From: an uncultured Clostridia bacterium
GTDB taxonomy: Bacteria; Bacillota; Clostridia; Christensenellales; UBA1242
Length of the DNA: 56,377 nt
Assembly: GCA_944384465.1 (NCBI GenBank)
Contig: CALWTK010000002.1
Span: 92,257 to 148,633 of the forward strand
Direction: 5' to 3'
Within the stretch, counting starts at the first letter, position 1. Each line of letters starts with the position of its first letter. Shown piece after piece: positions 24,365 through 27,873 of this stretch. A model generated the notes under the pieces. It did no database searches and was not told where the DNA came from. It saw only the letters and a program-made list of their open reading frames with translations. The position numbers were made by a program, and so were the translations under genes.

Positions 24365-24379
24365 AAGAAAACTCAAATT

Positions 24380-24415
24380 GACTTCTACTCAAAAAGGGGT
24401 AGGAGTCTTTTTTTT
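24380..24415 (+). terminator. Terminator of the miaB-ynbB operon
   Basis: An 11-pair stem, GACTTCTACTC (24380-24390) with GGGTAGGAGTC (24397-24407), followed by T8 (24408-24415). Confidence 0.9.
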
Positions 24416-24510
24416 GTTTAAATTAAGTGTAAACTAAAGCTATAAGGGCGTGGTTTAAAGGTTTAGCGTGCTTGTGGAAGAATGTAGGGCAGTGTGGAAT
24501 TTTACATCCA

Positions 24511-24546
24511 TATCTTTGCGCAAAACAACACTTTTACGCAAAGATA
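24511..24546. repeat. Dif-like inverted repeat, candidate Xer recombination site
   Basis: Left arm TATCTTTGCGCAAAA (24511-24525) and right arm TTTTACGCAAAGATA (24532-24546) are reverse complements with one mismatch in 15, separated by CAACAC (24526-24531). The inner 11-6-11 bases match the geometry of dif sites, where two Xer monomers bind 11-base arms around a 6-base crossover region. A XerS-like recombinase gene lies 2.3 kb away. Confidence 0.6.
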
Positions 24547-24929
24547 AGCGAAAAATTGCAAAAAAAGCTGTGGAAATCACTAAATTTATCCACCAAATCG
24601 TTTTTACTTACTAATATACATCATATTTCGACAAACTGTACCTAAACATGTCCACATTTCAAAAATTGATAGTTTGTTTATAAGTTTCGTTAAATTAATT
24701 GCATACGTCTAAAACATTTTACAAATAGGATGACCAAATTATTCATCCAAAACAAATTCAATTCGTGTGAGACAAGATTTGGCTAAACAATTTTAACTAA
24801 CTGCATATTTGATTCTGTATCGATAGATAATTGATCTTATCTTCAGCTTATCTTATTAATCATGTTGTTGATTCATTATAAAATATTTTTGCAAATTTTT
24901 TAGAATAGATACGAATTATAGTATTTCCA

Positions 24930-24944
24930 TATCTTTGCGTAAAA
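24930..24944 (+). repeat. Single copy of the dif-like arm
   Basis: TATCTTTGCGTAAAA, identical to the reverse complement of the right arm at 24532-24546, preceded by CCA as in two other copies. No second arm lies at the expected distance. Confidence 0.7.
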
Positions 24945-25002
24945 ACCTAAAATTATCATTTTTACAATTTCCATTCGTTCATATAAGGAATTTGATATTA
25001 TA

Positions 25003-25040
25003 AAAAACTAACCATCCGCTATACAACAAAATGGTTAGTC
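25003..25040 (-). terminator. Terminator of serS
   Basis: On the - strand ACTAACCAT (complement of 25031-25039) pairs with ATGGTTAGT (complement of 25008-25016), followed by a T-run (25003-25007). It lies about 90 bases after the serS stop. Confidence 0.8.
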
Positions 25041-25126
25041 TTTTCTATTTCATTATATTATAAATACTATTTCTAAATTGTATCTTTATTTATCCTATAA
25101 GGTCGCATGCCCTTCTTTCTACCCTA

Positions 25127-26416
25127 TTATTTTTTTGGCATAATTTGTTTCATTCCTCCCATGTATGGTTGCAGAACTGTTGGAATATTCACGCTACCGT
25201 CAGCGTTTAGGTTGTTTTCAAGGAACGCAATCAACATACGTGGTGGTGCCACAACAGTGTTATTTAGCGTATGTGCCAATTCATTATTACCGCTAGAAGT
25301 CTTGTACCTAATTTTTAACCTTCTAGCTTGTGCGTCTGTCAAATTGCTACATGAACAAACTTCAAAATACTTTTTCTGCCTTGGGCTCCATGCTTCGACA
25401 TCTAGGCTTCTATATTTTAGATCCGCTAAATCGCCTGAACAGCATACAAGTGTTCTAACTGGAATATTCATTGACCTAAACAATTCGACTGAATAGTTCC
25501 ACATTTTGTCATACCACTTGTCACTATCTTCCGGCTTACAGATGACTATCATCTCTTGTTTTTCGAATTGATGCACGCGATAAATACCTCGCTCTTCTAT
25601 CCCGTGAGCGCCAATTTCTTTTCTGAAACATGGACTATAAGAGGTCAGGCACAAAGGCAATTTTTCTTCTGGTATAATGGTGTCCATAAATCTACCTATC
25701 ATGCTATGCTCGCTAGTACCAATCAAGAACAAATCTTCGCCTTCAATTTTGTACATCATATTTTCCATTTCTTCAAAGCTCATCACGCCGTTGACCACGC
25801 TACTATGAATCATAAAAGGTGGTATACAATAGGTAAATCCCTTATTTATCATAAAGTCACGAGCATAAGATAAAATTGCAGAATGCAGACGTGCAACATC
25901 TCCAGTTAGATAATAAAACCCCTGACCAGACGTCTTTCTTGCGGCAGCAAAATCAGCTCCATCCAATTTCTCTATAATGTCAGCGTGATATGGAATCTCA
26001 AATTCGGGCACAAAAGGTTCGCCATATACATTGCCTTGAACATTCTTGCTATCATCTTCACCTATAGGAACATCGTCAGCAATAATGTTAGGAATGGACA
26101 TCATAGCTTGTTTTATCTTTTCGTCAAGTTCGGCGACTTCTTTTTCAATAACTGCAATGCGTTCATTATTCTTGACGACTTCCGCCTTGATTGTGTTCGC
26201 TTCTTCAAGCTTTTTTTCTTTCATAAAAACGCCTATCTTGCTAGACAAACTATTGCGCTTGCTCCTCAAGTCATCGCCTTCTTGTTTCAAGAGACGAACT
26301 TTGGCATCCATCTCAAGTACATCATCAACGAGATGCAATTTTTGGTCTTGAAATTTTTTCTTAATATTTTCTTTCACTTTGTTTGGATTGGTCCTAATCA
26401 AATTTATATCTATCAT
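25127..26416 (-). CDS. serS: Seryl-tRNA synthetase
   Basis: A 429-residue class II synthetase. The N-terminal coiled-coil arm (about 25-105, charged heptads) binds the long variable arm of tRNA-Ser. The catalytic domain has GTSEHSMIGRF and CFRKEIGAHGIEERGIYRVHQFEKQEM (motif 2), CSCSNLTDAQARRLKIRY, and AFLENNLNADGSVNIPTVLQPYMGG near the end (motif 3). The start is the ATG at 26416, with AAGGAG five bases before it, not the upstream in-frame codon. Expression is controlled by a T-box leader. It stands alone on the - strand between + strand operons. Confidence 0.98.
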   Translation of the reverse strand: MIDINLIRTNPNKVKENIKKKFQDQKLHLVDDVLEMDAKVRLLKQEGDDLRSKRNSLSSKIGVFMKEKKLEEANTIKAEVVKNNERIAVIEKEVAELDEKIKQAMMSIPNIIADDVPIGEDDSKNVQGNVYGEPFVPEFEIPYHADIIEKLDGADFAAARKTSGQGFYYLTGDVARLHSAILSYARDFMINKGFTYCIPPFMIHSSVVNGVMSFEEMENMMYKIEGEDLFLIGTSEHSMIGRFMDTIIPEEKLPLCLTSYSPCFRKEIGAHGIEERGIYRVHQFEKQEMIVICKPEDSDKWYDKMWNYSVELFRSMNIPVRTLVCCSGDLADLKYRSLDVEAWSPRQKKYFEVCSCSNLTDAQARRLKIRYKTSSGNNELAHTLNNTVVAPPRMLIAFLENNLNADGSVNIPTVLQPYMGGMKQIMPKK

Positions 26417-26442
26417 AATTACTCCTTTTAGTTTTGTAGCTA

Positions 26443-26480
26443 ATAAAAAAATATCCACCCCTTAATTTAGAGGTGATATT
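26443..26480 (-). terminator. T-box regulatory terminator
   Basis: On the - strand AATATCACCTC pairs with GGGGTGGATATT (one bulged G), followed by a T7 run (26443-26450). It overlaps the T-box antiterminator element. Confidence 0.8.
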
Positions 26481-26681
26481 TACCACTGTGCCACTCTATT
26501 TGAGCAAATCTAACATTTGCCCCACTCGTTTTGTTGCAAATTGCGCCATGCAACCAGCCCCGCATTACCAGGTGTCATAAGGGGTAGACACATATAGTTT
26601 CCATAATTTGCTTTCACCGACCGCAAACTCTCTGATATCTCCGCTATATGCTAGTCCCTATCATAGACATATTCAATTGTT
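26443..26681 (-). promoter_or_regulatory. Serine-specific T-box leader of serS
   Basis: Read on the - strand. Stem I begins near 26670; its distal part has AGAGAG and GGTCGGTGAAAGC (26611-26633), a pattern typical of T-box stem I. The 3' side of the specifier loop contains TCTA, so the specifier is UCU (Ser), complement of 26586-26588. The T-box sequence AGAGTGGCACAGTGG (26483-26497) carries TGGC, which pairs with GCCA at the end of uncharged tRNA-Ser. A terminator hairpin follows. Uncharged tRNA-Ser should stabilise the antiterminator and raise serS transcription. Confidence 0.92.
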
Positions 26682-26767: not shown

Positions 26768-26782
26768 TTTTACGCAAAGATA
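26768..26782 (-). repeat. Dif-like arm overlapping the recombinase promoter
   Basis: The complement reads TATCTTTGCGTAAAA with CCA before it, as in the copies at 24508-24525 and 24927-24944. It ends three bases before the -10 hexamer of the recombinase gene, so a protein bound here would cover the promoter. Confidence 0.75.
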
Positions 26783-26791
26783 TGGTATAAT
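26783..26791 (+). promoter_or_regulatory. Extended -10 promoter of the XerS-like recombinase gene
   Basis: TGG-TATAAT at 26783-26791; the -35 region is poor and the spacer is occupied by the dif-like arm. Confidence 0.7.
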
Positions 26792-26832: not shown

Positions 26833-27873
26833 ATGTCAAATAATTATTATCTAGACAGAAATCGAAACAACATGAAAAAATTGAATGAAATCTTGACTAC
26901 ATTGCCTGCATTTTGTAGTATATTTTTCATTGGAATTCAGGATACCACTACCCCATTGACTAGATTAAATTATGCTATAGATTTAAAGACATTTTTTAAT
27001 TATTTAGTCACATACGAGACTGGATTTTTCAATAGACCTATTATGCAAATCACATTACATGACATAGACAACATAGATTCACAAACAATTGAAAGATATA
27101 TGGCATATTTATCATATTACGATAAAGATAATGGCGAGATTGTGACAAATGGTGAAAAAGGTAAATTGCGAAAACTCTCTACTCTTCGTGCATTTTTTAA
27201 ATATTTTTTCAATAAAGATATGATAAAAGCGAATGTAGCTAGCAAAGTAGCTTCGCCGAAACTTCATGAGAAGCCAATCATTAGATTAGAACCGCAAGAG
27301 ACCGCTGAATTGATGTATTCTTGTGATACTCTGTCCGGATTCAGCGAACATCAAAAGAAATATAATGAAAAATATAAAGTCAGAGATAATGCCATTCTCT
27401 CACTCTTTTTGACGACGGGCATACGTGTTAGCGAATGTGTCGGACTCAATGTAGATGACATTAATTTCAATCTAAATTCGTTTAGAGTCACCAGAAAAGG
27501 TGGAAATCAAGTCATTTTATATTTTGGCGAAGAAACTGCACAGGCATTAAAAGACTATTTACATTTTAGAGAAACATTAAATCTTCCAAAAGAAGAAAGA
27601 GCTTTGTTTATTTCTAGTCAAGGCAAACGCATGATGGTTAGAACTATGGAATACCTTGTGAAAAAATATGCCAAAGTCGCTACTCCACTGAAAAATATTA
27701 CCCCACACAAACTGCGCTCCACCTATGGCACCAACTTATACAATGAGACAAAAGATATATATATCGTGGCAGAAGTTTTAGGACATAAAGATGTCAATAC
27801 GACAAAAAAACATTACGCCGCCATAAGTGACGATGTTAGAAAATCTGTGGCTGGCAAGGTAAAACTTAAATAA
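26833..27873 (+). CDS. XerS-like tyrosine recombinase
   Basis: A 346-residue tyrosine recombinase, longer than XerC/XerD (about 300) and close to XerS (about 356). The first 25 residues are a basic extension, then a SAM-like core-binding domain (about 35-125, with DLKTFFNYL and IERYMAYLSYYD), then the catalytic domain with R198 (TTGIRVSE), K222 (TRKGGN), H292 and R295 (HKLR), H318 (LGH) and the nucleophile Y328 (KHYAAI). All six catalytic positions are present. In streptococci a single XerS resolves chromosome dimers at a site beside its own gene; the setting here is similar. An integrase of a lost element is the main alternative, but no attachment site duplication or phage gene is seen. AAGGGG precedes the ATG. 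Confidence 0.88.
   Translation: MSNNYYLDRNRNNMKKLNEILTTLPAFCSIFFIGIQDTTTPLTRLNYAIDLKTFFNYLVTYETGFFNRPIMQITLHDIDNIDSQTIERYMAYLSYYDKDNGEIVTNGEKGKLRKLSTLRAFFKYFFNKDMIKANVASKVASPKLHEKPIIRLEPQETAELMYSCDTLSGFSEHQKKYNEKYKVRDNAILSLFLTTGIRVSECVGLNVDDINFNLNSFRVTRKGGNQVILYFGEETAQALKDYLHFRETLNLPKEERALFISSQGKRMMVRTMEYLVKKYAKVATPLKNITPHKLRSTYGTNLYNETKDIYIVAEVLGHKDVNTTKKHYAAISDDVRKSVAGKVKLK

Follow-up and report, generated by a model that had tools for sequence, protein, structure and literature searches.

Several bacterial groups use one Xer recombinase at dif in place of the XerC and XerD pair. In streptococci and lactococci this is XerS, a protein of about 350 aa, and its site difSL lies beside the gene at the terminus and comprises 31 bp, its unequal arms separated by an 11-bp centre (PMC5357621). 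In Helicobacter and Campylobacter, XerH/difH likewise consists of a single recombinase with dif near its gene (PMC5357621). XerL/dif is an order-wide single-recombinase system of the Legionellales with long uninterrupted inverted-repeat arms, and its dif was discovered via an element inserted at it (PMC9765430). Integration at dif by host Xer is also described for Enterogokushovirus, a microvirus found at E. coli dif (PMC7062461). A literature search on dif and Xer in the Christensenellales found no report. Here, a 56,377-nucleotide stretch of DNA (the window) from this order was analyzed. The window genome and its close relatives belong to the genus Candidatus Onthoplasma, all genomes of which are metagenome assemblies. 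The inverted repeat at 24511-24546 is very probably the dif of a single-recombinase system, with the product of ORF 26833-27873 as its only recombinase.

The site reads TATCTTTGCGCAAAA-CAACAC-TTTTACGCAAAGATA. As stated in the preliminary description, it has two 15-base arms (24511-24525 and 24532-24546) that are reverse complements with one mismatch; 14 of the 15 positions pair across the 6-bp centre CAACAC (24526-24531), and the 11-6-11 geometry of the inner part was seen again when the sequence was re-checked. This corresponds to the layout of dif-type sites, which span about 28 bp with two 11-bp arms and a centre of 6-8 bp. The core is located in a non-coding gap (24365-25126) flanked by convergent genes, and the recombinase ORF starts 2.29 kb away, in agreement with the 2.3 kb given earlier. 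The 1.07-Mb genome has four exact copies of the 14-base arm ATCTTTGCGYAAAA, which all fall in a 2.3-kb part of the window: two form the palindrome (24512 and 24532) and two stand alone (24931 on the plus and 26768 on the minus strand). A reversed-pattern control gave zero matches in the 1.07-Mb genome. Because the arm occurs only four times in the genome, all of them here, and the control not at all, the palindrome is not a chance occurrence. The two exact single half-sites, at 24931-24944 (+) and 26768-26781 (-), had been overlooked in the preliminary description.

Several further elements surround the core. On its left, the terminator hairpin of the convergent gene, followed by a T-run, was found in the sequence at 24380-24407 (+). 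A flank alignment revealed the motif TGTGGAA at 24473-24479 (+), which reads TGTGGATAA in several relatives and is copied in a prophage attachment site. Just left of dif and pointing at it lies the polar octamer GGGCAGTG (24487-24494, +), which resembles KOPS; a similar G-rich motif was present left of most cores in the alignment. On three contigs of the genus, GGGNAG[TG]G was counted 30 times on the leading and 0 times on the lagging strand, and AGGGTAG 43 times and once, respectively. The octamer is a candidate KOPS of the lineage, with part of the strand bias explained by GC skew. The right flank carries a DnaA-box-like inverted repeat, TGTGGA...TTATCCACC (24569-24594), which is conserved in the genus. 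The DnaA-box-like motifs TGTGGA and TTATCCACC on both sides of dif are conserved across the genus, but no counterpart was seen in the family's remaining genera. The stretch from dif to the recombinase gene contains serS, encoding seryl-tRNA synthetase (25127-26458, -; TIGR00414, 405.6 bits), which is a bystander. A T-box leader of serS was detected at 26466-26673 (-) with 72 bits (E 8e-15), less than the gathering score of 93, and the intergenic region in which it lies also holds the recombinase promoter. For the intergenic region of dif, a T-box or small RNA was considered and rejected, as none was found there and the T-box belongs to serS.

The core had been predicted to lie near the GC-skew switch and to occur once per chromosome. 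In three contigs from three genomes the maximum of the cumulative skew was only 13-33 bp away from it: on contig C2 of the window genome the 14-mer core begins at 116,768, 15 bp past the peak at 116,753, and the corresponding positions of peak and core are 139,445 and 139,458 in G171 and 69,416 and 69,449 in G148. Skew values on these contigs are roughly +0.12 to +0.16 to one side of the core and -0.12 to -0.17 to the opposite side, and the genes on both sides converge on it. In G274, a complete 2.77-Mb chromosome from another family, the core (1,211,332) lies about 850 bp from the skew peak and 113 bp upstream of the recombinase gene. The core was single in the window genome and in all eight same-genus genomes of the family sample. 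Several copies per genome would have spoken against a dif; a generic core pattern was found in 129 of 198 genomes of the order and was single in 128 of these, while its reversed control matched 1 of the 198. The other 69 had no exact match to the generic pattern, their sites being degenerate or unassembled.

Conservation of the repeat in relatives, expected of a dif, was observed within the genus, across the family, where the site takes the form AWCTATTCGCAAAA-N6-TTTTGCGAATAGWT, and in other families of the Christensenellales. The site was near the recombinase in 31 of 39 family loci examined, nearly all from different genera, and for 20 of 29 loci in other families the core was no more than 1.3 kb upstream of the gene. 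Among the 48 genomes listed in which both core and recombinase were located, the two shared a contig in 46. In 41 of these 46 order genomes the core was 41-1997 bp upstream of the recombinase; in the remaining five, all of family f3, the distance was 28-54 kb. One Onthoplasma subclade now has TTTTCG in the core arm, with TTTGCG retained in its single half-sites, indicating that core and half-sites are not perfectly co-evolving.

The recombinase (26833-27873, +) is a protein of 346 aa with the Pfam domain PF00589. As described before, it retains all catalytic residues, which are R198, K222, H292, R295, H318 and Y328 when aligned to E. coli XerD. Its designation as XerS-like could be upheld, given that XerS NF003462 was the best NCBIfam model, but it is not XerS proper: the score of 176 bits (range reported 172-176) is below the curated cut-off of 267, and the protein falls into a clade of its own. 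An XerS-like protein was found in 144 of 151 order genomes, and none of the 151 yielded a score above the NF003462 cut-off, which a Lactococcus control exceeded. In a phylogenetic tree that covered the order's proteins, XerS from one non-streptococcal family only, XerC/XerD and integrases, the recombinases of the order formed one clade (SH-aLRT 96), separate from both NF003462-positive XerS and XerC/XerD; the long branches of this tree make its deeper branching order unsure. The enzyme would work like XerS, yet the tests of XerS membership applied here place it outside. An ortholog was present in 127 of 144 family genomes sampled, with a single match in all but two of these, and at the scale of the phylum such XerS-like matches were rare (5/199). 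Proteins with 382-385 bits, well above the XerS cut-off, were encountered in three genomes of family f55 (L173-L175, in G334, G413 and G376); these genomes are of 5.6-7.3 Mb and belong to another class, and no palindrome was seen close upstream.

The use of one recombinase rather than XerC and XerD, as proposed earlier, was supported as well. XerD-like matches occurred in 13 of 121 order genomes, none of them past the XerD cut-off (XerD model only), and in the near-complete relatives G148, G049, G149 and G171 the XerS-like protein was the sole tyrosine recombinase found. The window genome has three further PF00589 matches, which are two mobile-type integrases and one fragment at a contig end. 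An FtsK with a gamma domain was present according to a protein domain check. The neighbors of the recombinase gene are housekeeping genes, namely serS, lexA, mutL and miaA.

Temperate prophages were found at dif in three relatives (L122, G161:C10:23500-35700; L123, G049:C3:49000-56500; L125, G166:C100). G161 contains two tandem 5.17-kb prophages, 97.9% identical, between half-copies of dif, and G049 contains one prophage of 5.34 kb at dif; the left prophage junction of G166 is the same as in these two. The prophages are assigned to the gokushovirus type by a recognizable pilot protein and by matches to phrog_514 and phrog_942 among their major capsid and replication proteins. The left junction consists of the host flank, the host left arm and the 6-bp centre, after which phage DNA begins, and the right junction is a complete core, so that a complete dif is retained after insertion. 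Since the left junction ends after the centre and the right one is a complete core, strand exchange takes place in or at the centre. Thus, the junctions in three relatives show that the core recombines in nature, presumably through the recombinase of the host. In both fully read cases about 40-60 bp of host sequence on the left of the core, with the TGTGGA motif and the KOPS-like octamer, are copied in the phage, and because of this copied flank the functional site may exceed 28 bp. A search of IMG/VR for microvirus genomes with the attachment sequence gave eight matches; the one that was read (L172) is a tailed-phage fragment carrying a terminase-like gene.

Single copy, position at the skew switch, linkage to the recombinase, lack of XerD matches past the cut-off and prophage insertions together bear out the earlier proposal of a chromosome-dimer resolution site served by one recombinase. 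Four monomers of one enzyme would bind two copies of dif, which would meet when FtsK pulls a dimeric chromosome through the septum, and the enzyme would cleave at the borders of the central 6 bp. Given the near-identical arms, only the asymmetric centre would give the site its direction. From the sequence we infer binding by the window recombinase and dependence on FtsK, as well as the autorepression discussed below. A second, diverged Xer elsewhere in the genome, with which the enzyme would form an XerC/XerD-type heterodimer, is extremely improbable. The three additional PF00589 matches in the window genome could be taken as candidates, one of them being only the contig-end fragment, but the other two are integrases with a different N-terminal half that the tree places far outside Xer; moreover, near-complete relatives have only one tyrosine recombinase, and near-identical arms fit one enzyme.

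It is also very unlikely that the palindrome is only an operator, bound by a transcription factor or by a recombinase acting as a pure regulator of nearby genes. Half-sites do overlap the recombinase promoter, and one is accompanied by the promoter-like sequence TTTACG-17-TATAAT on the minus strand; however, such an operator would hardly be situated exactly at the skew switch and, in the window, between two convergent gene ends, occur once per genome throughout the order and form the exact crossover point of integrated prophages. These insertions could in turn be read as a sign that the site is the attachment site of a mobile element with the 346-aa recombinase as its integrase, since gokushoviruses do insert at the core and the PF00589 domain is common to phage integrases. 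Against this, the inserted phages carry capsid, pilot and replication genes and no integrase among the ORFs read, while the recombinase is single-copy in nearly all family genomes and flanked by the four housekeeping genes. Furthermore, the joint absence of recombinase and site from a relative, with element boundaries around the pair, was not encountered, and we consider there to be hardly any chance that this explanation holds.

The single half-site at 26768-26781 (-) is positioned in the recombinase promoter between -35 and -10, followed by the extended -10 box TATAAT (TGGTATAAT; 26786-26791, +) at a conserved spacing. Across the genus the promoter half-site TTTTTTACGCAAAGAT precedes the start codon by 30-84 bp in 20 of 21 loci and by 270 bp in one, and TATAAT or TAAAAT followed it after exactly 4 nt in 20 of 21 loci. 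In about 10 of 31 loci from other genera an exact single arm was present at most 100 bp upstream of the recombinase gene, mostly in the opposite orientation; those of the arms that were found by a neutral pattern match the arm variant of their own genus. The recombinase would bind the lone half-site and thereby repress itself. As a protein on this half-site would block the polymerase, autorepression is the simplest reading, and the position between -35 and -10 with a fixed 4-nt spacing to the -10 box makes it likely. We therefore regard 26768-26781 as a probable autorepression operator on the basis of promoter anatomy. At loci with dif 60-300 bp upstream of the gene, dif itself could serve as the operator. 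A literature search for Xer autoregulation found nothing relevant, and the review used here does not mention it.

In addition to the promoter half-site, single half-sites flank the core. In the window this is ATCTTTGCGTAAAA (24931-24944, +), 419 bp right of the core with its AAAGAT side toward dif. Each of the 21 genus loci whose core is perfect has a right-hand half-site at a distance of 354-1045 bp, and left-hand half-sites were present at 237-397 bp in some genus loci. Some flanking half-sites lie within the T-run of terminator hairpins of neighboring genes. Two isolated half-sites far from dif (G169 and G011) were rejected as background, as they mismatch the single-site consensus, and a function of the flanking half-sites as promoters was also dismissed, because TTTACG-17-TATAAT occurs only in the window and its closest relative and is thus not general. 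Two other isolated half-sites, 17 and 40 kb from dif (L130 and L131; G148:C2:86507 and 109495), match the flanking-site consensus and have the same inward polarity.

The flanking half-sites may be accessory binding sites, roadblocks or relics, and a function in recombination or terminus organization is possible rather than probable. That they are decayed dif copies or chance sequence without function is likewise conceivable, if somewhat doubtful: they were not clearly seen beyond the genus and its near sister, and their distance to the core varies. On the other hand, 14-16 bp of the half-site are invariant in the genus loci although both neighboring flanks have diverged, the orientation is constant and inward-pointing (left on the minus, right on the plus strand), and they differ systematically from the core arms (GCGTAAAAAAC versus GCGCAAAA). 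We tentatively put forward that the Onthoplasma dif is composite, with one Xer acting also on inward half-sites and on its own promoter, which would resolve dimers, autoregulate and organize the terminus. The terminus role might perhaps be that of a topological filter like TnpI-IRS or of a polar roadblock to forks or transcription. In TnpI-IRS of Tn4430 a tyrosine recombinase binds a palindromic core and separate single motifs, which adjoin the core at no more than about 100 bp and serve to resolve transposon cointegrates. The flanking half-sites described here, in contrast, are conserved across a genus at 237-1045 bp from the core, and their binding is putative.

Taken together, an entire order of gut Clostridia seems either to have exchanged XerC/XerD for another system or never to have used the pair, and it adds a further independent-looking single-recombinase clade to XerS, XerH, XerA and XerL, which suggests that single-Xer systems are commoner than in the textbook picture. 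For these mostly uncultured genomes the dif sequence offers a simple marker of the terminus and allows temperate microviruses to be matched to their hosts. With the promoter half-site, Xer autoregulation becomes directly testable, and a nearly symmetric dif with one enzyme provides a clean case for how the order of strand exchange is set.

Compared with the described systems, the locus differs from XerCD/dif in that none of 121 order genomes has an XerD match past the cut-off and several genomes have a single recombinase. With Enterogokushovirus it shares a microvirus integrated at dif, but the host belongs to the Christensenellales and has one recombinase, and the phages copy 40-60 bp of flank besides arm and centre. 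It resembles XerL/dif as an order-wide system with long uninterrupted arms; in L. pneumophila, however, dif and xerL are more than 400 kb apart and the site sequence is different (PMC9765430). The similar length of the recombinase and the nearby dif also recall XerH/difH (PMC5357621), which belongs to another sequence family and has other arm sequences. In common with XerS/difSL, the window has the only Xer recombinase of its genome, linkage of this gene to dif over 2.3 kb and arms that end in AAAA/TTTT, the arm TTTCCGAAAA being similar to TTTGCGCAAAA (PMC5357621). It is set apart from this system by a centre of 6 instead of 11 bp, by almost perfectly symmetric arms, and by the interval from dif to the recombinase gene, which contains serS as well as a promoter half-site.
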